Origin: Lojkania enalia
Taxonomy: Eukaryota > Ascomycota > Dothideomycetes > Pleosporales
Assembly (NCBI GenBank): GCA_010094045.1
Contig: ML986658.1
Coordinates: 102,837 to 166,836, forward strand
Direction: 5' to 3'
DNA length: 64,000 nucleotides
Shown here piece by piece: positions 13,195 to 64,000 of the stretch (positions within the stretch are counted from its first letter, which is position 1; each line of letters starts with the position of its first letter). The notes under the pieces were generated by a model, which did no database searches, was not told the origin of the DNA, and saw nothing but the letters and a program-made list of their open reading frames with translations. The position numbers and the translations under genes were made by a program.

Positions 13195-14511
13195 TTAACC
13201 TTGCGCTCCATCACTAACTCCCTTGGCTCGCCCCCCGCCGATCTGCACATCCACCCTCCCAATATTTTTCCTCCCCTGCTCGCCCTCCGCCGACTTCTTA
13301 AAGCCCTGCAGTAAATCTTGCTTTAGATCTTCCCAATTCTCCGCGCCTGTACTAACTCTTAACAGAGTCTCGTCAACATCCGCATCGCTCATCCGCCGCC
13401 ACTCAATCAAGCTTTCCACACCACCGAGACTCGTCGCATGATGGAATAGGCCCAACTTGGATGGAAAGCTCTTCGCTTGTAGAGGCTCATGCATGTATAT
13501 TGAGAATACAGGACCAAAGCCGCCGGGCATCTGTTTCTTGAGCCAGTCAAAGTCGGAAGTTTGTAATGAGGCATGCTTGATATGCTTAACCACTTTCTTA
13601 ACCGCATCAGCATCGGGCCCAGAGCCAGATAGCGATGTGTGAAGCCACTCAACTAGCTTGGTGGCATTAGAAGACTGGCGTTGCACGCGGAGTTCAAACG
13701 TTCGTAGACTGCGGACCCCAAGCCAGCCCTCCAGACTTCCCATAACGGAACCGAGGAATATGCGCTCTTCTCGGAGTATCCGCGCGCGTTTGGCTCCTTC
13801 TGGCCCTTTGGGTGTTGCCAGCACGCCGCAGAGCATGTCAGAATGTCCGCCAATGTATTTAGTGCCAGAATGCATGACTATATCCGCTCCCCATTGGAAG
13901 GGGTCTTGCAGCCCAGGGGGTCCAAAGGTGGCATCGACGGATAATAACGCGCCCCTCTTGTGTGCGCGCTCTGCGAAGTGCTGGATAGGATACGCTTCAC
14001 CGGTCGGGTTGAGCGGTGTTTCCAGATGTACGATATCACCTTTTCCAAGCCCGGCTTCCTCCCAGGCAGCATCATCAGCGTGCAAATCTACAGTCTTGAC
14101 TCCATGCATCTTTTTGTGCAGGCTAATCACCCCATGGCACCCGTGGTACCCGCCGCTGATAGCAATGACCTTGGGTACGACATTGACGAGTAGGGCATGG
14201 AAAGCGCTAAGTCCTGAGCTGTAGCTGATGACATGGTTTGCTAGTTCTTCCAGCTCTTGTTCCGAAGTGCCGGGGAATAGTAGGGGCGCGAGTATCGTCT
14301 CGAGGCGGTTTATGTTTGCGGATGTGAGGCGTGAGTATACGAGCGGGGTGGATAGATCGAGATATTCGCCTTCTACGGGAGCTGGCTTGAGAAGGTCGGG
14401 ATTGCGCGGGTAGCGAAAGGTAGTCGAGGTGTGAATGGCGGGAGCAACGTCTGTTAGGACATTGACGCGGTCGTCGGCGTGGATGCCCAGCGTCGCTTGC
14501 GCGAAGGGCAT
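13195..14511 (-). CDS. Cystathionine gamma-synthase-like PLP enzyme
   Basis: Uninterrupted 438-aa ORF of the Cys/Met-metabolism PLP-dependent family (fold type I). Visible residues: YSR at 60-62, aromatic GYHG near 121-124, LETPLNPTG at 163-171, SVDATF with the cofactor-binding Asp at 193, and HSGTKYIGGHSD with the PLP-binding Lys at about 218. The family performs transsulfuration chemistry (cystathionine or O-acyl-homoserine substrates) in the cytosol. It has a C-terminal basic, Gly-rich tail after residue 415 that is not part of the fold. Fungal relatives of this branch are often annotated only as trans-sulfuration enzyme family proteins, so the exact reaction should not be assumed. A long CT/GA tract lies about 105-150 bp upstream of the ATG. 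Confidence 0.88.
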   Translation of the reverse strand: MPFAQATLGIHADDRVNVLTDVAPAIHTSTTFRYPRNPDLLKPAPVEGEYLDLSTPLVYSRLTSANINRLETILAPLLFPGTSEQELEELANHVISYSSGLSAFHALLVNVVPKVIAISGGYHGCHGVISLHKKMHGVKTVDLHADDAAWEEAGLGKGDIVHLETPLNPTGEAYPIQHFAERAHKRGALLSVDATFGPPGLQDPFQWGADIVMHSGTKYIGGHSDMLCGVLATPKGPEGAKRARILREERIFLGSVMGSLEGWLGVRSLRTFELRVQRQSSNATKLVEWLHTSLSGSGPDADAVKKVVKHIKHASLQTSDFDWLKKQMPGGFGPVFSIYMHEPLQAKSFPSKLGLFHHATSLGGVESLIEWRRMSDADVDETLLRVSTGAENWEDLKQDLLQGFKKSAEGEQGRKNIGRVDVQIGGGRAKGVSDGAQG

Positions 14512-14613
14512 TCTCGAGGGATTAAAAAGGAAATTGAAGAATGCAGCTCGTCGGAAAAGAGATACCGCTCAATACTCCAGACTGCAGTATGGGAATATGC
14601 AAAGGAAGAAGCT

Positions 14614-36525: not shown

Positions 36526-39173
36526 ATATAATTGCGATATTCGTTCTATTCCATACCATAGGACCTATTGACCGTAGGCGCGTCTTTGCGGGAGAGTGAC
36601 CTTGGATGTCCATCGGAGACGAACCCCGCTTGACGCTGAAGTATCTAATCGCAATCAGCAAGATTGAACATCCTCGGCGCATTGAGATCCGTCCTCATAG
36701 TGCTTTTTTGGTATCGAGAGTCGTGCCTTCGTGTTCTGGATAAGTCAACAGGTTTACCACGCTAGCAGATGAAGCCTGCCGCCGCCCCAAGTATTATGGC
36801 ATGAGAAGAGAATAGAGAATCGGCAAAAAAATATAGCAGTATCATGCCCACTCAGTTGCTGTATCAGTAGAGAGCCGTGTAACGTAGAAGAGATCGCGGC
36901 CTCGATAGATCTCTAGGTATTCTTCAGAAAGAGGGTCGGGCGCTTCAAGGTAGGTGCAACGGACAGAGATTCTGCCTTGATAGACTCATTATCCACCGCA
37001 GGCTATTACCTGCGGCCATATGACACGTACATGTACCAAAGGCGTTGCCAATTCTCTCGGGTACGTGAGTATATGATGAGCTGTGGCTCTGTTTTGTTTG
37101 TGCTGCCACCTCACAGATGCGCAAGTGCTTCATTTTAGAACTAAAGGCTTCGTAAGGTAGCAAGACCAAGAAATCATAAATATCTCAAACCTGAAAATTA
37201 TAGCAAAGCGGTAGATGCAATCTAGATACACCTCTCAAAACCACAAAGAACCGCGTCGTGACTCTACCCCGAAGAGTGAAGACACAACAAAGTTCACACA
37301 ATACCCAAATAGGCCGGAACCTAGGTAGGGAATACCTCTTCTTCGACACCATGGCAAATGCCACAGGAAGCAACGAAAAGATATAGAAAATCTAAAAGAG
37401 AGTTGTCAAAAATTCCCAGTCGGCCCGAAGGCCAACTGGAGCAGTCAGTAGTTGTAGTTTTCAACTAGCAAAAATCCAGGCTCAGACATAGTCTTCACTG
37501 CCATGGATAAAGCCCTTGCACTGGGATGGAGAAGAAAAAGGAAAAGAAAAGCACAAGTGGGAGGCCAGATGGGCGTATATAAACACCAGATGATGCCAAG
37601 GCACTAGTAGTGCGCGGGACGCTACTGCCTGTTCCGCCTGCGAGGTCCCTAGAACGTTCCATGAAAATCTTAGATGGAATGTTTTACCGAGATGGCGTTC
37701 TGCGGTGTTGCAGGTGAAGGTGGTGGGTGAAGGAGAGTTGGCGATATTGCTATAGATACCAGGGACCTGCCGTATTTTGGCCAAAACAAGTTCAATAAGG
37801 TATAAAGGTATTTCGAGTCAATAGCGTATATTGCACCTAAGCGTCATTGGCAGATGGCAGTTACATGTGGACCTAACATCTCCAGGTCTCTACCCTCTGC
37901 CTTCCGTTTCAACACTGCTCTTTTAATAACCCTCCAGAATCTGTGCATCTTATTCGATTAAGAGCACATAATATGATGATTAAATGGCACACGCAACACT
38001 TGCACAGCGAGAAGCTTGATACCGGAATATCAAGGATTGGGAGCAAAGCCTGACTCCTATTGTAATCATGATAATCAAGACGTTATTTTCCCAACCGCAC
38101 AGATCTGGCGGCCATGGAGCCCTCATAGTGAATGACTTAGTTACTCGCTGTCAGAGACACGAGTAATTTGTTGCTAGTCAAGGTATGTCCAATCTTAGTA
38201 ACGATAATCGGTGTCACGCGCAACTATCCATCACCTTCGCGACGTGGCGCTCATACGTGACTTGTAGGCAGCCAAAACAAAATTACCAATAAACAATGGA
38301 GTGAAGTCGCAAACAGGTCCTGCGATTATTGTGTTGAGTGCGCGCGTGAGGAAAGTAAAGCCTCGAAGGTTGAATCTTCGCGTGCTGCATTCTTCTTCGG
38401 ATGCCGTGTTCTCGCGTTGATCCTAGAACGAGACTCTCAAATTTTACCGCCTCGGCTTCGCTCCACGAACACTTTTGGAGCCCAGCGCGTATATTGATGT
38501 TATTTTTGCGTCTTAGAAACTTAATTCTACTTTAGGAAACTGTTATGGGCAGACCGCCGCTCTTATATAGCATCCAGAGCAGCTCAATAGACGCTAGTAA
38601 CTGCTGTCACGTTCGACGGATTTCGGGCTAGGTTTTATGACACGAGAAGAGCAGCAATTCTTCTATATTTGAAGTTTTAGTGAGGAGTTGAAATAATCAA
38701 GTGCCTCCAAGGCATATGCCAATACACATATTGTAGAAATCAAAGATTGCTCCATGTGAATGACCACGGGCAAGATCAGTGATCATACGTCTCGGTTCAA
38801 CCCCCGATATGAATTGTTTAAAAAAAAAATCCACCTACCAGAAGTACAGCGATAGTATTATTACTCCCTTTATAGGTCGCCACCGCTTACTCACTCACTC
38901 AATTTATAGACGATGGCTATGCCAAAGTGTAGCACCGCTCCTTCCTCCTTTCAATGTCAGGCTTGGCAAACCGGGCACTTCGTGTATTCCTTCTCATAAA
39001 TAAATCCACTTCCAGTCCTGCTTTTCTTACAACTCCCAAACCATCTCGCCAAACGTAATAGCCCACAGGAAGCCAACAACAGCACTCCAAGCCGCCAGAC
39101 GTTCCACCCAAGCTCCACTTCCTACCTCCCCGACCCAGCTGCAGCTGAATCCGTATATTTTCGTAGTAGCCAT
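36526..39173. other. Long intergenic region, 2.6 kb
   Basis: The largest gene-poor gap outside the transposon block. Small frames (36945-37373, 37482-37784, 38779-39003) have no domain or splice support. A GGTTCAACCCCCG string near 38794 resembles a Pol III B box, but no tRNA fold can be built. An A10 run lies at about 38820. It may hold the unresolved 5' exon of the following gene. Confidence 0.45.
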
Positions 39174-41246: not shown

Positions 41247-42039
41247 CTAACCTACATATGCCACGCACTCAATCTCCACCGGCACCCCCTTGGGCAACTG
41301 CCTAACCGCCACACAGCTCCGCGCTGGCTTATGCGCAAAAAACTTCTCGTACACGCCGTTCATCTCGCCGAAATTCGTCATGTCGTCCAGGAAAACGTTG
41401 ACCTAGTCCCCCCAGCCATTAGCTCGAGCCAATCCCTGTGTAGTGGAATGGGCTGGGGAATTGGGGATCCACAACGAGGGAGGATAGTAGAGGGGGAATG
41501 CCCGTCGTACGTACCTTGACGACACGCGAGATGTCGGTGCCGGCCTCCTTGAGTATGGCAATGATGTTGCTGCAGCACGCCTCCGTCTTGTCAGCAATCG
41601 ATCCCTCCACGAGATTCCCGTCCTTATCAGCAGGGATCTGGCCCGAGACGAAGATGTTTGGGCCTGCGACAATAGCTTGGGTCTGTATGCGTTTCACCTC
41701 GTCAGTGCGTGTTTCGTTGTGTTTTGTTGGGTGCCTGTTGGGCAGGGCTTGTTGGGACGTACGTAGGGTCCGGCGGCTGTTGATTGTTAGCAGTGAGCTG
41801 GTTCTGTTTCTGCGAGAGAGGGAGGGAGGGGTGTACGCACGCGGGCAGGCAGCCGCAGTGAAGACTTTCTTGATATCGGACATGGTGCGCTGCTGCTGGA
41901 GGAGCGGCGGCGGTGGCTGCAGCAGACGGCGTAGTTGAGAGGATGCAGGACGCAGACAGGGAGCTCTAACGATTGCGTGTCTGCAGGACAAGAGGCGAGC
42001 AGGACGCAAAAGGCGCGATGGTGCAATGGGTTGATGCAT
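41247..42039 (-). CDS. RidA/YjgF/YER057c-family enamine deaminase, two starts
   Basis: Four exons on the minus strand: 42039-41841, 41776-41763 (a 14-nt micro-exon encoding the PAGPY part), 41682-41515, 41402-41247; 178 aa from the first ATG. RidA proteins hydrolyse reactive enamine/imine intermediates (such as 2-aminoacrylate) made by PLP enzymes. Hallmarks: AAGPY-like loop, TQAIVAGPNIFVSGQIP, the conserved VVKVNVFLDDM and the C-terminal ARSCVAVRQLPKGVPVEIE, including the substrate-binding Arg. The first 52 residues are Arg/Leu/Pro/Ser-rich with no acids, like a mitochondrial presequence. Met53 (41883, MSDIKKV) gives a 126-aa protein, the normal cytosolic length. One gene may therefore supply both compartments, which yeast does with separate Mmf1 and Hmf1. 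Confidence 0.93.
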
Positions 42040-42586
42040 GGGCGCGTACCATTACTAGCTACCTAGCGACTTATGTCACCCAGCATTTCCCATCCCCATC
42101 CAAGCATCGTGCCGAAGCGAGCGGTTGGTGTGCGGGAACCGTCGGTCAACGCATCGGCGCTTGCAGAATTAATGAGGAAGGTGGGGCTGCCGGGCTCGGA
42201 GACCTGAGCCGGTGCCGGTCGCGCTGGCCCGATGCGGTCCATGGAGGGGCAGCGCTGGGCAGACCGGCCCGACTCGACTCAATCCAATTATTTTTTTTCC
42301 GCGACAGCGAAACCGCTCCACCCAGAGGAAGGTGCCCGAGATTAACATGATTCATACCCAAGCCCGCCCTAAATCCCTGTCTATGTACCATTGACGAGGC
42401 CTTGTGCCATTATAGTAAGTAGAGAGAAAAAGAAAATCCAACATGTTCCTTGTGTCCGTCACTGCCCGGGTGGGCCGGGGAGAGACCCTGTGATGATGCC
42501 GACCAATAGATCTGTGAAGATGAAAAATCCAAAGCGCCTTTCCATGCAGCTTCCATCCGTCTATATCGCGCATAAAAAGACAGCCG
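42040..42586. other. Intergenic, nothing recognised
   Basis: Leader of the RidA gene and 3' region of APRT; no feature recognised. Confidence 0.45.
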
Positions 42587-43332
42587 TTACTTTTCCTGAC
42601 TCGATAAGAGAGTGTAGACAGGCGCATCGAGCTTTGCACGTCCCTTGAGGAAATCGAGCTCCATCAAGAAGACGTAGCCCAGGAGGGTGCCTCCCAGCTT
42701 CTTCACCAGGGAGCCCGCAGCTGCCGCGGATCCTCCTGCGGATAGCTAGTTAGTGATGGCTTTGGATAGAAGAGGATGGCAACGGCCGTACCTGTTGCGA
42801 TGATGTCGTCCACCACCAGCACTTTCTGCCCTGGCTTGATCCCGTCACTCTGAATTTGGAAGAAGTCCTCGCCGTACTCCTTCTGGTACCCCGCCGTCTC
42901 GCAGGGCCCTGGCAGCTTGCCCTTCTTCCTCACAGGCACAAACGCAGCGCCGAGCCGCAGTGCGAGGCTGGGACCGAAGAGGAACCCGCGCGCCTCGAGG
43001 CCGACTATGACGTCTGGCTTCTGGTGCGACTGAGAGATGTGTAGTTCAAGGGCACGCACGAGGGCTTCGTGGAGCGCAGGGCTGGCGAAGATGGGGAGGA
43101 TGTCTTCGAACAGGATGCCTGGGGAGGGGAAGTCTGGGAACTGGCGGGTGGCCTGTTGCAGCCTTACCGTAAGACGGGAGAGTTCGGCGGCGGCGGCGGC
43201 ACTGGTGGCGGAGAGTCTTCTTTGGGAGGCATTGGACTCGAGCGTGGGATCGGGCTTGCTGGCGGGCGGGTGGGCGGCGGTAAAATCGGGGTCGTGAGGC
43301 TGCGGTGCGCTGCTGATGGGCTGCGCGGACAT
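42587..43332 (-). CDS. Adenine phosphoribosyltransferase (APRT)
   Basis: Two exons on the minus strand, 43332-42792 and 42735-42587; 229 aa. APRT converts adenine plus PRPP to AMP in purine salvage. Visible marks: FPDFPSPGILFEDILPIF, VGLEARGFLFGP, FVPVRKKGKLPG, and the PRPP loop VLVVDDIIATGGSAAAAG. The intron falls inside this PRPP loop, splitting the first Gly codon after IATG's Thr. The ATG at 43332 (MSAQPISS) is preferred; an in-frame ATG at 43539 would add 69 Pro/Ser/His-rich residues unlike the family. The first 55 residues after the chosen start are still an unusual disordered extension (Pro/Ser/Ala). It lies 1.3 kb from, and on the same strand as, the homoserine kinase-AIR synthase fusion, giving a purine-related pair. 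Confidence 0.93.
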
Positions 43333-44663
43333 GGCGGAGGGGAGAAGAGGGGGAGGAGGAGAGGCAGAAAAAGAAGAAAAGAGACCCGCTGGGTGGTGAG
43401 AGGCGCGGTCGAAACGGGCAAGAGTCTGGAAGACAGCCAGCTGCGGGCCTGGGCTGGCTGTGGGCGGACGGTGAACAGTGGGTGAGTGGACTATGGACTG
43501 TGGACAGCTGCAAACGCACTCTGGGCGCTGGGCCTGCACTCTGCGGTGGGCGAATGGGTCCCGACCGTGGGATGCAAATATTCATGGCGTCGTTGTCGAC
43601 ACCAGGTGCTAGCCACTCTCAGACACCGCACGGGCCCCCAAGCCTGCTTAATCTCGAAGGCCTGAGCATTGCGAAGAGTCAAAGAAAAAGATTTTGTGGG
43701 ACGGCCGCACCCACCGCTCGATAGGCGTTGCGATAAGCCCTTCCGTCAGCGCCAGAGGAGAGGCCCGATGGGGCAGCTTGCAACCCCTCTACCACATCAG
43801 TCTCATGGCTCCCAACAAAATGCCCACCCGTCCACCCGTCCAGCTGTTCAGCATCGTGTCCGCCGGTGAGCGCTAATATTGCCCAATCTACGCGCCCCTC
43901 CCGTCAACCCATCAATAATATTACCAAACCTCTGCTCCGGCGTGGGATCCGCAACACCAGCGCGCTGGTATCCGCTGCATCACTCGCAGTGACATGCCTG
44001 CCACTATTACACCTTGATATGAGATAAAAGGCCAGCCGCAGAAGCACCTGTGGCTGCAGCAGGCTGCAGCGTGGCGTGCTTATTGTGGAGAAGGCCTGCA
44101 AGAGGCGTTTCACCCGAGCTGCCATGGCCCAAAGCCAGCCAGAGGCACCAGCTGGCCCGTAATACGTATCTAAAGCGCCTCTACCCTGGAAGCACTGATG
44201 GTCAGGTCACTATCGCTTGTTGGGTGGAGACAGCAGAAGCACAATGCTCGCAAGGGGGCCGGGGAATCGACGGCTGCCCGCTCTATTTCAGGTACTCTAC
44301 ACTATGCTTATTGAGATCTCTAAAGCTGCGCCCCGACACATTGCGCGAAATCGCGATCGTGTTTGCGAAAATATGCATTACGCGCTGCCGCAGATTCTCT
44401 CAGATCTCAGCGCCATCAGCTCTCTGGGGCGGTATAATAGCTCCGAGGCGCATAATTTTGGCATCTGAACAAGTGGATCCTGGCGAACTGGTTGAGCCCT
44501 TCAAGAGTCTACGAGTATCCAGGGTTTACACTACGACAACCCATCACTACCACAATTCAATGTCTCCACCAGAGGTGCCACGATTGTCACGGATTGTTAC
44601 GGATTGTCCTTGGAGCGGTCGAGGTCTCCAAAGAATAATCATGTGGTATCGGTGGGTCCCAGA
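43333..44663. other. Intergenic, 1.3 kb
   Basis: Between the APRT start and the 3' end of the homoserine kinase-AIR synthase gene. A long plus-strand frame beginning at 44050 continues across the fusion gene on the opposite strand and has no domain, so it is a shadow. Nothing else recognised. Confidence 0.5.
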
Positions 44664-46793
44664 TCATCTCCAGACATCCATGTTGCGAACTACGCATTCC
44701 TCTGCCGCCTTGTTGATCAACGACCCAATGGTAAATACCTTTTCTCCATGCTCTTGGAGGATCTCCGTCGTCGTCCTTGCATTTTCAGGGCTAACGACGA
44801 GCACCATGCCCAGACCGGTATTCCAGGTCCGGCAGAATTCAGTATCCTCAATGCGGCCTGTCTGCTTGAGCCATTTAAATACGTTGGGGACAGGCCAGGA
44901 TTTTGCATCCAGCTCTGCCGCAAGCGACCCGGGGAGCATGCGAGGAATGTTTTCAATTAGGCCGCCTCCGGTGATGTGGGCCATACCCTTGATGAGTCCT
45001 TTTCGGGCTGCGGAGAGGAGGGGTTTGACATATATTCTCGTCGGGGCAAGAAGACTTGCGCCGATGCTCACAGTGGAATCCCATGGCGCGTCATCATGGA
45101 ATGAGAGTCTCTTTGTCTCCAGGATCTTGCGGATCAAGGAGAAGCCGTTCGAATGCGCTCCGTTGGATGCAAGGCCTAGGAGGACATCACCTACCTCCAT
45201 TGCATCTTTGTCCGGTAGGATCTTGGCCCCCCTTTGTATAGCACCTATCGCGGCACCCCCCGCGTCGTACTCCCCTTCCTTGTATAGACCGGGCATTTCT
45301 GCCGTTTCCCCTCCTACGAGAGCGGAACCCGACTGCCTGCAGCCATCAGCAACCCCGCGGATGAAGGCAGCCGCGCTCTCAACATCTAGTTTGCTGCACG
45401 CATAATAATCGAGGAACATGAGGGGTTCGGCGCCTTGGACGACAAGATCATTGACATTCATGGCCACGAGATCGATACCGACCGTGTCGTGCTTGCCCAT
45501 TTCGAAGGCAACCTTAACCTTGGTTCCGATACCGTCAATGGCACCCACGAGGATCGGTGGCTCTGAGTAGCCGGCAATCTTTAGGTCGAGCAGGCCTCCA
45601 AACCCGCCAATCTCGGCATCCGCTCCTGGACGCTTCGTTGTTGCTACAGATGCTTTGATTTGCTTGACCAGTTCATTCCCAGTGTCTATGCTCACTCCAG
45701 ATGATGCATATGTCAAACTCTCGCTCGGTTCTAGAGATGCCGATGCCCGCGTAACAGTAGTACCCTCTTCCGCAGGTTGGAGCAACTTCCAGTCACAAGT
45801 AATGCCCTCCTTCTTAAACTCTTCAAGCAAATGACTGGCAATAGTGTCGAAATTGCCCGTTGCCAAAGCCAGAATGGTAGGTCCCGCACCTGACAAGCAG
45901 ATGCCCAAAAGTCCAGGATGCGACTGGGGGGTAACAGACTTCAAAATTTCCGTGAGCCCGGGAATGAGCCCTCTGCGGTACGGCTGATGGAGCTTATCTT
46001 GCATGGCAGTATAAATATTCTCTGGGTCCGGAGGAGATTCGCCAAGGGCGTATGTGAGGAGGGCCAACCTCTGCATGTTGAAGATGGCATCCTTTCTAGA
46101 ATACGATGCCGGTAGCACCTCTCTCGCCTTGGCTGTAGATACCTCAAAATCTGGAATGATACATATGCACTTGATTTCCGGCGCCCACCTAAATTTCTTG
46201 AAGTGGCCAATATTGCACGGGGGTTGTGGGGGTTGCAGACCAGTGTCAACACCGCCTGCAGGCTCCGGTAACACCTCACTGAGTGGGATCTCCAGTCTCC
46301 CGGTATCATCTGGAGACAGCTCGTTCAGATATGTTCCGACGAAACCGCCATACAGCGCCGCAGCGACATTGTCCGGGTGACGCTCTTCCATCAAGCAATA
46401 ATCCAACATCCTAGCTTTTGACAGTTGCAGGTTTCCGATCTCATTGGCTATGTTGACTCCAGCAACAATTGCAGCGCCCGATGATCCCAAACCTCTGCCG
46501 AGGGGAATGGGGTTCTTGATGTGAACATGGGTCTCGGCCGGGAAGGCTCGAATGCCGTGGCACCTAAGGACGTAGACGGCGGTCCGGGTGACGAGATTAT
46601 GTTCGGCGACGAGGGGCACCGAGTCTGCGCCGAACCCTTCATAAGTGATGCGACAATTGAGGGAGTGCTCGGAGGTAGTCTTGCGGGTGACAGTGACGTG
46701 CACTTCGAGATAGACGTTGAGGGCGAGGCCAATGACATCGAAACCAGGGCCAATGTTTGCGGAGGAACACGGGACCTTGATTATGGTCACCAT
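44664..46793 (-). CDS. Homoserine kinase fused to AIR synthase (PurM)
   Basis: One uninterrupted 709-codon ORF with two complete enzymes. Residues 1-348 are homoserine kinase of the GHMP family: VPCSSANIGPGFDVIG, the ATP loop NPIPLGRGLGSSGAAIVAG (94-112), and LSGAGPTILA near 300. It phosphorylates homoserine for threonine synthesis. Residues about 356-700 are phosphoribosylformylglycinamidine cyclo-ligase (AIR synthase), purine step 5: YASSGVSIDTGNELVKQIK, AIDGIGTKVKVA (419-429), NVNDLVVQGAEPL (446-458), LVGGETAEMPG (492-502), SNGAHSNGFSLIRK and AHITGGGL. A short linker (about 340-358) joins them. In most fungi AIR synthase is the C-terminal half of Ade5,7 (GAR synthetase-AIR synthase), while homoserine kinase stands alone. 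I see no stop, frameshift or intron between the halves. Both active sites look intact. Whether it replaces or duplicates Ade5,7 cannot be told from this window. Confidence 0.95.
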   Translation of the reverse strand: MVTIIKVPCSSANIGPGFDVIGLALNVYLEVHVTVTRKTTSEHSLNCRITYEGFGADSVPLVAEHNLVTRTAVYVLRCHGIRAFPAETHVHIKNPIPLGRGLGSSGAAIVAGVNIANEIGNLQLSKARMLDYCLMEERHPDNVAAALYGGFVGTYLNELSPDDTGRLEIPLSEVLPEPAGGVDTGLQPPQPPCNIGHFKKFRWAPEIKCICIIPDFEVSTAKAREVLPASYSRKDAIFNMQRLALLTYALGESPPDPENIYTAMQDKLHQPYRRGLIPGLTEILKSVTPQSHPGLLGICLSGAGPTILALATGNFDTIASHLLEEFKKEGITCDWKLLQPAEEGTTVTRASASLEPSESLTYASSGVSIDTGNELVKQIKASVATTKRPGADAEIGGFGGLLDLKIAGYSEPPILVGAIDGIGTKVKVAFEMGKHDTVGIDLVAMNVNDLVVQGAEPLMFLDYYACSKLDVESAAAFIRGVADGCRQSGSALVGGETAEMPGLYKEGEYDAGGAAIGAIQRGAKILPDKDAMEVGDVLLGLASNGAHSNGFSLIRKILETKRLSFHDDAPWDSTVSIGASLLAPTRIYVKPLLSAARKGLIKGMAHITGGGLIENIPRMLPGSLAAELDAKSWPVPNVFKWLKQTGRIEDTEFCRTWNTGLGMVLVVSPENARTTTEILQEHGEKVFTIGSLINKAAEECVVRNMDVWR

Positions 46794-58837: not shown

Positions 58838-59561
58838 CGTGCGCGTAACGCCCGGATTCGCGTAACGCCCCGCCCACCGAAATCAACCCCAACTTCAACA
58901 CGCGATAACTCCACCAATATGGACCCGATCCAGGCTGCGATTGAAGAAATCGAATCGCTGGAACCAGGAGAAGATTTTTCATATATGAAAATGGCAGCTA
59001 GATACTGTATTAATCGCTCTACGCTCAGCCGAAGATACTAAGGCCCTCAGGCACCTCGGAAAGCTAAGGCAATTAACCAGCAGAAGCTTAACTTATAACA
59101 AGAGCAAGAGCTTATATAATATATTAAAGGACTTACAGAGAGATATATACCCCTTATAAGAGAGATAATACGAAATTTTACTTCTATAATAGCTAAAGAG
59201 GCAGTTAGCGAGAGCTAGGTTACTCGCTTTATTAACCGGCACAGTATTTATCTTATCTCGCAATAGGCAGTCGGCATGGATAGTAATCGCTATAAGGCTA
59301 ATTTAGAGGATAAATATCGCCTCTATTTTCAGCTCCTATATAGTAAAATTAATCAATATAAGATAGATCCTTGTTATACCTATAATATAGATAAGAAAAG
59401 CTTTTTAATTAGTATTATTAGCAGATTAAAAAGGGTATTTAGTAGGTAAATATAGGAGAAGAAGGCTATAGTATTACTATAGGATGGTAATTACGCGTAA
59501 ATTACACTCCTAGTATATATCTATATTAATAGATTAACTCTACTATTAAGCTTTATTTATA

Positions 59562-59632
59562 ACGTATAGTATAAGCGAGCTAATTACCTAAGCAAGCTAA
59601 TTATAATGCTAAGACTATACTAAAATCGCGAC
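59562..59632. repeat. Left terminal inverted repeat of nested element
   Basis: Begins ACGTATAGTATAAG and runs about 70 bp to ACTAAAATCGCGA. The right copy (61363-61433) is its reverse complement, and most mismatches are C/T or G/A, as RIP would produce. Confidence 0.9.
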
Positions 59633-61362
59633 TACTTTTCGCAAAATATTATACTTTCTTATATTCTATTATACTATATAGTAGAGTAGTCTATTCTTCT
59701 ATATCTATAATATTATTTTTATACGTCCGCGAGTTATATCTAGCCTTACTATATTATCTATAGTACTTTTAAGTTAGCTAGCCTCTATTAATATATACTT
59801 TCTTTCTACCCTTCTTTTTATTAGTATAAGTGTTAAACTCTTTTAGAGTAGTTAATTAAACGCCTTCTTTAATTATTAGGTTACTTTTCTTCTATATATA
59901 CTTTCTTTTATATAATTAATATTATATAGTAGCTTTATTAGCTATTTAAAGTTTAGTAACTTAAACGTATAATAGTATATTTTTATATATTATATATATA
60001 GCACTTTTTATAAACTATTTAAACGCTTCTACTATTAAAGTAGATAAGCTATCTAAATACTTTTAAACTCTTAATTAAATATATATAGATTAAGACTTAA
60101 ATTTAATAAAATTACTTAGTATTTTTAACTTTTAAAGAGTATCTTTAATTATAAAAAATATTAGTATATATAATTAAATTTTAAACTTTAATAATATTAT
60201 ATTTAGGTTAAATAGAACTAGACTAGTATTTTAAAAGCTATTTAGGATATTACTCTTTATAATTACTATATTAAAAGCTACTTTAAAATAGAATAAGAAC
60301 TTAATTTTTATAATATAATTAATATAACCGTATATTAGCTACTTAACTTAGCGCCTATATATAGTTTTTAAAGGCGAGAAACAACCTATATCTAGTAGCT
60401 ATAGTAGGTATAATAAATATAGAGGTATATAGAGAGTAATAATATTCTTTTCTTTATAAAGCTACCTAAATTTAAGTAAGTTATAGTTCTTATAACTATT
60501 AAGAATTAGTAATTAATATATACTAATAGTATAATCTTTTATATATATATTAAAGTACTTTAACTATTTAATACTAATATTATTTATTATCTAGCTATTA
60601 TTAGTAACCTATATAGTCTAGATTAGTAGAATATTATTTTCTTTATACTATATAGAAAGGTAGTAAATACCTATAAAGATAATAAAAAGTAGTGTTATTT
60701 ATCCTATTATATTAATACTTTAGATAACTATAGTTTACTTATAATTATCTAGCTAGAGCTACTTTAGTTAATTCTATCTTTTAGAGCTAGTAACTACTAC
60801 TTCTATTAATATTACACCTATTATAAAGTCTAATTTATTAAAGTTGTATATATTTTTATTAATAATACTATATTTAGCCTTTATATTTTATATAAGGTAG
60901 AACTAGCTTTTTATAACCTTAGAATTCTTATATTTAGTTTTTAAATAGTTATACTTTTAATTAAATTTAACCTTAAGTTTAGGCGTATATTTAATAAAGT
61001 TCTCTATTTAGTTCTTTCTAATCTAGCTAGTAGAGCGTATAGCTAATAGTAAATTAGCTATATTTTAAATAGTAGTAAGCTATAGTAGAATTCCTCTTAT
61101 ATCTAGATCTAATATATATTAAATAATTATCTACTCCTTAATCTTATTAAGCTTTATTAAATTAGACTGGTAATCGCGTTATAGAGCTATTTTTTACTTT
61201 TATATACTAAGTATACTTTAAGAAATATTATAGATTAATATAATATAATATATAGTTAGTATTGCGTTTTATTAAAAAGCTTAGAGTATAAGTTATATTC
61301 TAGCTTCTTTCTAAATTAATTCTACAGTTATTAGTTATAATATAATACTATAAAGTATAATT

Positions 61363-61433
61363 ATCGCGATTTTAGTAGAATTTTAGTATTATAATTAGCT
61401 CGCTTAGGTAATTAGCTTACTTATACTATACGT
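61363..61433. repeat. Right terminal inverted repeat of nested element
   Basis: Reverse complement of the left repeat, ending CTTATACTATACGT before the TA duplication. Confidence 0.9.
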
Positions 61434-61954
61434 TAAGGCTGCTAATAAGAGTATCTAATTAAGCTGGGTAGAAGATATTAAGATAGAATATTATAAAGTT
61501 TTTATTATCTTATTATTCTTTAACTAGATAAATAATAACATTAGACTTATTTAGTTTAAATAGATATATAATTACTATATAAAAGAGAAGATTTAATAAT
61601 TATATTAACTTTTAATTCTAGATAATTATAAATCTTATATTATTATAGACTTTATTAACTACTATAATTAGAATAGAATTCTTCTTACTATTCTACCTTT
61701 TTATTTAATTTATATACTTTAGCTACTTAATATTATAATATTTAAGCTTTTATTAATAGCCTATTTAGTAGAACTATTAAGCTACTTTTATAAAAGTTAG
61801 AGTCTAGCTTCTATTATTAAAAATAACTTCTTCTTTCTATTCTAAAATATATAAAAGGTTTTCTTTAAGAAATTAACTATCTTTAACTCTTTTAAAGTAA
61901 TAGATATATTATCTTCTAATTCTAATTAGGCTGGTAAATAGGGTATATAATACC

Positions 61955-62110
61955 TTACCTAGGTTAAGATTAGGTTTAAAGTTCTTAGTACTAGAGTTAA
62001 AGTTAAGGTAAAGTTCTTAATACTAAAGTATAGATTAGATAGAAGTTCTTAATATTAAGGTTAAAGTTAGAGTAGAGTTTTTAGCGTTAGGGTATAAGAT
62101 TAAGGTAGGG
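61955..62110. repeat. Degenerate GTTCTTAGTACTA-type tandem repeat
   Basis: About four imperfect copies of a 35-45 bp unit containing AAAGTTCTTARTAYTARRGTT, between the end of the first transposase and the third element. It may be the mutated subterminal region of the first transposon or an independent minisatellite. Confidence 0.5.
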
Positions 62111-62188
62111 GTATCTTATAAGGTTCTTCTATAATTATAGGAAATAATTATATATTATATATTTATTATAATATATTCTACTATTAAA

Positions 62189-64000
62189 GTAGCAAAACTA
62201 TTAAAGCAGCTACTTTTTCTTAATATAATAAATACTATATACGAAAAGTTAATTTACTTAATATTAATAAGAGATTCTATATATAATATACTTTTATCTA
62301 ATTTAGAATTTTCTCTACTATCCTTTTAGCACGTATAAGTATTATATCTAGTCTTACTATAGTTATTATAGTAGTATTAAGCTAGTTAAGCTCTTTCTTA
62401 AGTATCAGTACTATAAATCTTTTTAAAGGGCTAAGAGTTTATAGATACTTTAGCAGCTATATATAAAGATTCTTTACTATATAATACTATACTACTATAC
62501 TAAATATACTTTCTTTTATATATTTTACACTTAGTTACTTCTTCTAATTACCTTTTAAGCTTAGAGTTATAAGTTTAAAGAAGTATATTCTAATATAGTA
62601 TTAACTTAGCACCTTTTATAAGCTATAAAAATCCTTCTTATACCTCTTTTAGTAATTATATAAAGGACTTTTATATAAATATTAATTATAATCTAAATTT
62701 ATATATATTATTTAGAGTTTTAAACTATTAAAAGTCTCCTTATAAAAGTAGTTCTAGTAGAGTATATAGTTATATATTAAGGCGATCTAATATAATCTAT
62801 ATATTTAGAGGAATAATTTCTATTACTTTAAAGACCTTTTAATAGTTCTTATACGTAAATATATTAAAAAACGCGTTTTTAAAGGCTGGAAGGAAGCTTT
62901 TTTTATTAATATAGTAGACGTATTAATATACTAAATCTTATATACGCTATAAATACTTTAACTTTAATAGTAAGAAGTAAACTATATTAAAAGGCTAAAA
63001 TATATATAATAAATATAAAGGTATATAAAGTATTAAGATCTTTTATATAAGATAGTAATTTTTAAATTCCTAGTTAAGGTAGCTTTTATAGCCGTCTAAA
63101 ATAAGTAGCCTATATAACTCTATCTAATATATCTTTATATACTTATTAAAGTACTTTAGCTACTTAAAACTAAGTATATTATTTATCCAACTGTTCTTAG
63201 AGACTAAAATTTTCTAATTATATAATATACCTACTTCTTTATACTATATAGAAATATAGACATATTTTTTATAGATAATAAATAGCGGGGTTATATACGT
63301 AGTAGTATAAATACTCTAGATAATTATAACCTACTCGCAATTATCTAGCTATATAAAAGTAAGCCTTATATAATATTCTAAACCTATAACAACCTTTATA
63401 GTATTAATAATACCTATCTAAAAGTCTATCTTATTAAAGTTATAGATATTATTATTATATATACTATATTTTACAATTATATCCTATATAAACTTAAACT
63501 ATATATTAATAACCTCTAGATTCTCTTATTTTATTCTTTAATAATCCTTTACTTAATTAAAAGCTATTTTAAACTTATTTATACACGCTATAAATTATTT
63601 AGGCTAATTCTTTTCTATAAGTATTCTACTATATACGCCTAATAGTTTATCTACTATATCTACTACCTTATATAGCTAGAGCGTAAATCCTTATAAATTA
63701 AGGTTAAGAATATATTATATAATTATTTATTCTTCGGTTATTATAAGCTTCTAGCGATTTAATTGTATATAAGAGTAAAACGTAATTCTATAAAGTTAAG
63801 TAGAGAGTTGTTAATATTATATATTAAAAGCTATAGTAACACGTTACACGCTCTTAAACTAGCCTAATTTATACACCTATAAGGTAAGCTTAATTCTACC
63901 TTCTTATTAAATTAATAGAAGGTTATATTATAGATTTATTATAGTTCGTACGTAGTATTTATAATACTAAGAAAAAGTAGCCGCTTTAATAGTTTAGCCG
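62189..64000 (-). mobile_element. Third RIP-mutated pogo-type transposon, reaching the window end
   Basis: Inverted repeats of over 50 bp are seen at 62191-62245 (AGCAAAACTATTAAAG...) and, reverse-complemented, at about 63946-64000. On the minus strand a stop-filled frame from about 63430 to 62810 spells a DDE_1 transposase: IYTTTYITPLFIIYK, LLILDGYKSYLN (D-G-x-K/E-S-x region), LTLYIPLYLLYIF*PFNIVY and SFLPAFKNAFFNIFTYKN. It resembles, but is not identical to, the nested element. CpA and TpG are nearly absent. The outer right boundary lies at or just beyond the window. Confidence 0.85.

Follow-up and report, generated by a model that had tools for sequence, protein, structure and literature searches.

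Why do a homoserine kinase and an AIR synthase, enzymes of threonine and of purine synthesis, share one open reading frame, and how did they come to do so? The question arises from a locus in Lojkania enalia, within a 64-kb window (the whole stretch of DNA that was analysed, 64,000 nucleotides), for which an earlier note had claimed a single 709-codon frame encoding both enzymes in full.

A single open frame encodes both enzymes

This claim was borne out. The fusion is a single open frame of 709 amino acids plus a stop at window positions 44664..46793, and both NCBIfam equivalog models score above cut-off; the coordinates of the earlier note hold, and the strand, which it had left unstated, is the minus strand, with 15 stops interrupting the plus strand over the same stretch (44664-46793). 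The homoserine kinase (GHMP; HSK) half covers residues 1-349 (45747..46793, minus strand) and matches thrB (TIGR00191) with 339.4 bits against a cut-off of 168.25, residues 5-349 aligning to positions 3-303 of the 304-position profile. The AIR synthase (PurM; AIRS) half covers residues 360-709 (44667..45716, minus strand) and matches purM (TIGR00878) with 413.7 bits against a cut-off of 236.35, residues 360-694 aligning to positions 1-331 of 332. The junction between them (residues 350-359; 45717..45746, minus strand) is a variable stretch rich in T, S, A and P, and the raw DNA frame of the window contains neither a stop nor an intron at the join. Pfam profiles GHMP_kinases_N, AIRS and AIRS_C were also above cut-off, GHMP_kinases_C marginally so (21.2 against 21), and the frame carries no GARS domain, so that it does not combine GARS and AIRS in one protein as Ade5,7 does.

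A protein search with the window protein returned 4449 matches, the best 120 of which comprise the window protein itself and 119 relatives. All 120 have HSK followed by AIRS in identical order, at overall identities of 68-100%, and 102/120 are 700-720 amino acids long. Identity to the window protein, which is included in the 120, ranged over 72-100% for the HSK half and 66-100% for the AIRS half; because similarity extends across both halves, the fusion is not a chance join.

We counted catalytic motifs over the same best 120 of 4449 matches, window protein included. CSSANIGPGFD, PLGRGLGSS and LSGAGPT were taken as GHMP motifs 1-3 of homoserine kinase. PLGRGLGSS and LSGAGPT were present in 120/120 each, as were DG[VI]GTK, M[NS]VND, HSNG and HITGGG, while ERHPDN and GGETAEMP were each found in 119/120 (P0032 reads EHHPDN, and P0098 lacks the GGETAEMP stretch). 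Motif 1 of the HSK half was exact in 105/120 and differed by one or two letters in 13, the two others, P0097 and P0105, starting too late to include it. The catalytic motifs, described earlier as intact on both sides, are thus present in the window protein and near-universal among the 120 listed proteins.

Gene models do merge at this locus elsewhere, the Bipolaris maydis model P0099 joining the fusion to a neighbouring gene, and an error of assembly or gene prediction that fused two adjacent genes would produce a similar picture. Such an artefact is hardly credible here: the frame is open in raw DNA with no spliced model involved, and 119/119 other listed proteins agree with it. The assembly join error raised in the earlier note is contradicted by these 119 relatives with the same domain order, and we rejected it; the HSK-AIRS fusion is confirmed as real.

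The fused arrangement is ordinary in the Dothideomycetes listed

The domain order, which the earlier note had proposed to search for in databases, is thus common to the best 120 of 4449 matches. The taxa that we looked up among the listed fusions (six organisms or genera) belong to Dothideales, Microthyriales, Mycosphaerellales, Botryosphaeriales, Gloniales and Aulographales, all of them Dothideomycetes, and many other listed carriers are, to judge by their names, Pleosporales. Correspondingly, 0/120 of the best GARS relatives listed carry AIRS. In one of these, P0218, part of a SAICAR synthetase domain (PF01259) precedes a free-type GARS, possibly a further purine gene fusion or else a merged model.

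When GARS and AIRS were joined into one query, 120/120 best matches were GARS-AIRS proteins, in agreement with the earlier statement that AIRS is fused to GARS in other fungi. Of these, 113 were at most 1000 amino acids long and 7 were longer, the named long ones coming from a fish and from insects. By our own count 54/120 carried an organism name, 5 of them animals and 49 fungi, and no Dothideomycete was among these 54 as the names read. Four of the fungal carriers were looked up and belong to Xylonomycetes, Lichinomycetes, Leotiomycetes and leotiomyceta incertae sedis; the remaining named ones we read as Leotio-, Eurotio-, Sordario-, Pezizo-, Candelario- and Geoglossomycetes and similar classes. 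PMC9502316 describes the Ade5,7 of Magnaporthe oryzae as a homologue of GARS and of AIRS.

In the listed matches, therefore, HSK-AIRS is the ordinary state of Dothideomycetes, and exceptions to the pattern may exist outside the best 120 matches of each search. Arthoniomycetes are the sister class of Dothideomycetes; none was found among the named carriers in any of the listed match sets, so that the age of the fusion is bounded on one side only. The earlier note had also considered that the architecture might already be described as normal for the whole class: ordinary in the listed Dothideomycetes it is, and the literature searched, with most subscription journals outside its reach, yielded no description of an HSK-AIRS fusion or domain swap. 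PMC9925542 makes no mention of homoserine, purine, AIR synthase, Dothideomycetes or GART.

One copy of each enzyme was found in the genome

We searched the 58.1-Mb assembly of the same genome (400 contigs, the window being part of contig C81) for further copies. Whole-protein, purM and Pfam AIRS searches all found AIRS in the fusion gene alone. Similarly, thrB was above cut-off in the fusion gene alone, with one weak second match that is IspE-like, and four other GHMP matches resembled galactokinase, diphosphomevalonate decarboxylase, mevalonate kinase and phosphomevalonate kinase. For GARS a single match passed the cut-off, with 514 bits across almost the whole profile; it lies on contig C28 and has no AIRS attached. 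Three more GARS matches were weak. This GARS is identical letter for letter to the Lojkania enalia protein P0121, bar an in-frame stretch of 17 codons, bounded by GT..AG, that is evidently an intron. Neither the separate Ade5,7 nor the separate Thr1 that the earlier note had proposed to look for was found in this assembly, in which GARS is free of AIRS, and the fusion gene is the sole copy found in this genome of both AIRS and HSK.

These counts bear on the possibility that a duplicated AIRS half was attached to HSK and took on a new role, the normal Ade5,7 being retained. It is plausible in principle that AIRS was duplicated and the old copy later lost; nevertheless, neither the family model nor the Pfam domain revealed a second AIRS in the 58-Mb assembly, GARS lacks AIRS here and in 120/120 listed relatives, and the fused AIRS has two near-fixed differences (see below) with its motifs intact. 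Such a duplicate, suggested earlier, is contradicted by a single AIRS with GARS lying apart; we consider it very improbable, and it was rejected on the grounds of the one AIRS found in this genome and an unattached GARS.

The IspE-like (MEP pathway) kinase is an observation in its own right. It lies at G000:C151:78749-79561 (L004:1393-2334), scores 292.9 bits against the NF002870 cut-off of 286, and has an ORF encoding a NUDIX protein next to it; a search of the fungus's own assembly for Dxr found none. The gene may have an orphan function or lie on a contaminant contig.

The AIRS half likely derives from fungal Ade5,7

To place the fused AIRS, we built a tree of 69 rows, comprising 25/120 fusions, 34/120 GARS-AIRS proteins and 10/10 bacterial loci. 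A branch supported at 99/92 separated the 25 fused AIRS from all other rows, and they were nested in a fungal clade (100/99) apart from the 10 bacterial rows; the branching does not settle where among the fungal rows they belong, and the program flagged long branches for three animal rows and one bacterial row. In a corresponding GARS tree (26/120 free and 34/120 fused GARS), the fungal fused GARS formed a group at 99/86, and the free GARS fell on one side of a branch with weak support (35/81), so that the GARS side alone is no proof of a single event.

Horizontal transfer from a bacterium, with displacement of the native AIRS, could be suggested by the top score among solved structures, which went to Neisseria PurM, a chain with greater coverage of the query than 7lvp from the fungus Cryptococcus. 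Against this stand the fungal clade at 100/99 and the identities, which were 48-66% to GARS-AIRS proteins (median 62, animals included) and 44-51% to the 10 fetched bacterial loci, a small set found by query-specific patterns. The linker-edge motif LTYASAGVSIDAGN, common to fungal Ade5,7, likewise argues against transfer. We regard a bacterial origin of the AIRS half as extremely unlikely, and rejected it as contradicted by the tree.

The same motif helps to locate the break. In rows picked from each set of 120 (24 fusions, 15 free GARS and 16 GARS-AIRS proteins), and with small variations throughout, the outgroup GARS-AIRS linker reads ..YRKDIAHRAF-(variable)-LTYASAGVSIDAGN.., the free GARS terminates at ..YRKDIAGRALK, and the fused AIRS picks up at ..LTYASAGVSIDAGN, the motif shared with fungal Ade5,7. 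As judged from these sequences, the genomic break falls in the linker between GARS and AIRS, and fungal Ade5,7 is the likely source of the AIRS half.

We scored an AIRS column as near-fixed when 90% or more of 119 fusions departed from 90% or more of 113 GARS-AIRS proteins (the incomplete P0099 being dropped), and two columns qualified. A new AIRS function is unlikely because of these two near-fixed differences and the persisting catalytic motifs, and the neofunctionalisation raised in the earlier note found no support, the stem branch of the fused AIRS measuring 0.085 in the AIRS tree.

Linkage of the GARS and HSK-AIRS genes

In the window's genome the fusion gene and the GARS gene lie on separate contigs (C81 and C28). 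We examined their linkage in the 26 named fungi with both genes among the listed matches, comparing the longest contig for each protein; for Parastagonospora and Phaeosphaeriaceae sp. SRC1lsM3a, which have several contigs per protein, the longest one alone was compared. In 4/26, namely Lasiodiplodia hormozganensis, Aplosporella prunicola, Saccharata proteae and Dothideomycetes sp. NU459, the two genes were on contigs identical in size to the base, which we take as being the same contig. In L. hormozganensis this contig measures 37,940 bases, and in NU459 the GARS/HSK-AIRS pair carries gene numbers 5807 and 5819.

By subclass, the genes are seemingly on one contig in 4/4 named non-pleosporomycetids vs 0/22 pleosporomycetids, the 22 unlinked fungi being those that we assign to Pleosporomycetidae. 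Three of the four linked fungi belong to Botryosphaeriales, and NU459 groups with Delphinella at 100/99 in the AIRS tree; the four amount to about two lineages, so that the Fisher value for 4/4 vs 0/22 should not be read literally. The shared contig in 4/4 vs 0/22 nonetheless points to a local rearrangement, and the simplest reading would be a split and re-fusion within one neighbourhood, with the genes later separated in pleosporomycetids.

A model for the origin of the fusion

Combining these results, we consider it very probable that HSK-AIRS is a bifunctional enzyme that arose by a swap of domain partners of Ade5,7, most likely in a single event. An ancestral fungal ADE5,7 gene (GARS-AIRS) would have been cut in its inter-domain linker. 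GARS would then have persisted on its own, and AIRS would have been appended, in frame, behind the homoserine kinase coding sequence. Going by its sequence, each half most likely catalyses its ordinary reaction: the HSK half would convert homoserine and ATP to O-phosphohomoserine, and the AIRS half FGAM and ATP to AIR, such that the fusion, as the single copy found of both enzymes, would serve threonine and purine synthesis together. The origin is, in our reading, a partner swap that most likely happened once, rather than duplication, transfer or the gain of a new function.

Retention of the fusion

A new regulatory link, as put forward in the earlier note, may exist. The fusion might have been kept as a functional coupler, the tether between HSK and AIRS co-regulating threonine and purine output through equal dosage, shared stability or allostery. 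Threonine cleavage might, for instance, supply the glycine of purine step 2, or threonine-derived enamines might feed phosphoribosylamine. Retention in all 120 listed proteins is consistent with such a role. Moreover, threonine can be cleaved to glycine, a substrate of purine step 2, and the genome holds two genes for PLP aldolases of the threonine-aldolase group, both above the cut-off of the GntG-family model and below that of the low-specificity threonine-aldolase equivalog; the absence of any obvious metabolic logic, as asserted earlier, was therefore too strong a statement.

Two genes downstream on the same strand could also speak for coupling. The next gene encodes adenine phosphoribosyltransferase (APRT; approximately 42590..43539, minus strand, in at least two pieces) and is followed by a RidA-family (YjgF/UK114) gene at 41253..41682 on the minus strand (pieces 41253-41402 and 41509-41682). 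PF01042 is above cut-off in both of the latter pieces (C81:144089-144238 and 144345-144518), and TIGR00004 is below cut-off for the first piece taken alone. According to PMC3416771, threonine is a precursor of phosphoribosylamine in Salmonella ridA mutants. Yeast threonine-pathway enzymes act in rDNA silencing, as reported in PMC11442984, the abstract of which draws no purine link. Against the coupling, this neighbourhood was read in one genome, with one gene model in addition for APRT. General-control regulation gave no help either: TGASTCA, which we take to be a Gcn4-type site, was found 0 times in the 64-kb window and 0 times in the GARS locus, so that no common general-control site was seen.

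The predicted structure likewise argues against coupling. The linker is short and variable, 12-25 residues rich in T, S, A and P in the 102/120 listed proteins that matched its pattern, and the model, computed from 53/120 aligned listed proteins, has two folded domains (mean pLDDT 75.3) placed relative to each other without confidence (pTM 0.49). Residues 351-355 and 357-369 have pLDDT below 50, as do catalytic loops in both halves (e.g. 98-100, 421-432 and 497-509), so that low values at the join give weak support to a flexible linker. In Foldseek searches each half had matches of its own among solved structures, PurM for one and homoserine kinase for the other, the best PurM rows reaching a TM-score by target of ~0.9 for a model of moderate confidence. 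We therefore favour independently folded modules on a short tether as the probable arrangement, and a fixed interface or a dimer contact between the halves may exist.

Finally, the fusion appears to be the sole copy of two biosynthetic enzymes, a status that would be enough alone to keep it from loss and that accounts for retention without coupling. We regard the coupler as unlikely. Quite improbable, too, is the specific version in which the fusion would be a selected device that sets threonine and purine flux jointly within the HSK-AIRS/APRT/RidA neighbourhood, with threonine passing to glycine or phosphoribosylamine. The partner swap, with retention probably through sole-copy status, is the reading that we favour.

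Other features of the window

HSK-AIRS, APRT and the RidA-family gene lie on one strand (the latter two at window 41253-43539), a small threonine/purine-flavoured neighbourhood in which the RidA adjacency was seen in the window's genome only. In Bipolaris maydis, the model P0099 lacks the last AIRS residues and continues into an APRT that matches the window APRT at 67.5-70% identity; it is probably a mis-spliced model, and implies that APRT adjoins HSK-AIRS there too. For TGASTCA, the expectation in the window is 7.3 by shuffles and ~5.4 by a higher-order estimate against the 0 observed, which may be chance, and 6 occur in 68 kb of loci from the same genome, some of them overlapping the window. 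Elsewhere in the window we found a U4 spliceosomal RNA gene (37390-37527, minus strand, 100 bits) and a Cys/Met metabolism PLP enzyme of the cystathionine gamma-lyase/synthase group (13198-14568, minus strand), which scored too low to pass the cut-off of any of the 25 NCBIfam models listed. Within 59000-64000, G+C falls to ~20% from ~59.5 kb onward, and this AT-rich end is perhaps a mutated repeat block.

Significance and comparison with known systems

Dothideomycetes are a very large fungal class, and the partner swap seems to offer a rare and clean genomic marker for it: a conserved fusion of two enzymes was taken apart and one half joined to an enzyme from an unrelated pathway, apparently once. 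HSK-AIRS also tests whether long-lived fusions require a shared pathway. In databases the fused proteins are variously named homoserine kinase, cyclo-ligase, AIR synthase or 'Bifunctional purine biosynthetic protein ADE1', and the monofunctional GARS is likewise labelled 'Bifunctional ... ADE1', with the consequence that a metabolic model or a knock-out read by one name misses the other half. Loss of the fusion gene should give a double requirement for threonine and adenine.

Fungal Ade5,7 resembles the fusion in having an AIRS of the same fungal clade, with the same linker-edge motif, at its C-terminus, and differs in its N-terminal partner, which is GARS, whereas in the fusion it is HSK and GARS is a free gene. 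ThrB/Thr1 (TIGR00191) shares the full-length GHMP domain with its kinase motifs, but the solved homoserine kinases that it matched have chain lengths of ~300 or <335 residues, to which the fusion adds a C-terminal AIRS. The metazoan GART system (GARS-AIRS-GART) also holds AIRS within a multifunctional protein, and in it GARS is able to exist alone, the short product being free GARS. This metazoan split arises by alternative transcript ends, whereas the fusion involved a genomic split and a new partner. A title cited in PMC9502316 reports that the human GART gene yields two proteins. The folB-folK-folP enzymes of eukaryotic folate synthesis, as described in PMC4224340, are similarly fused biosynthetic enzymes that undergo fission in evolution; unlike HSK and AIRS, which come from different pathways, they catalyse consecutive steps.
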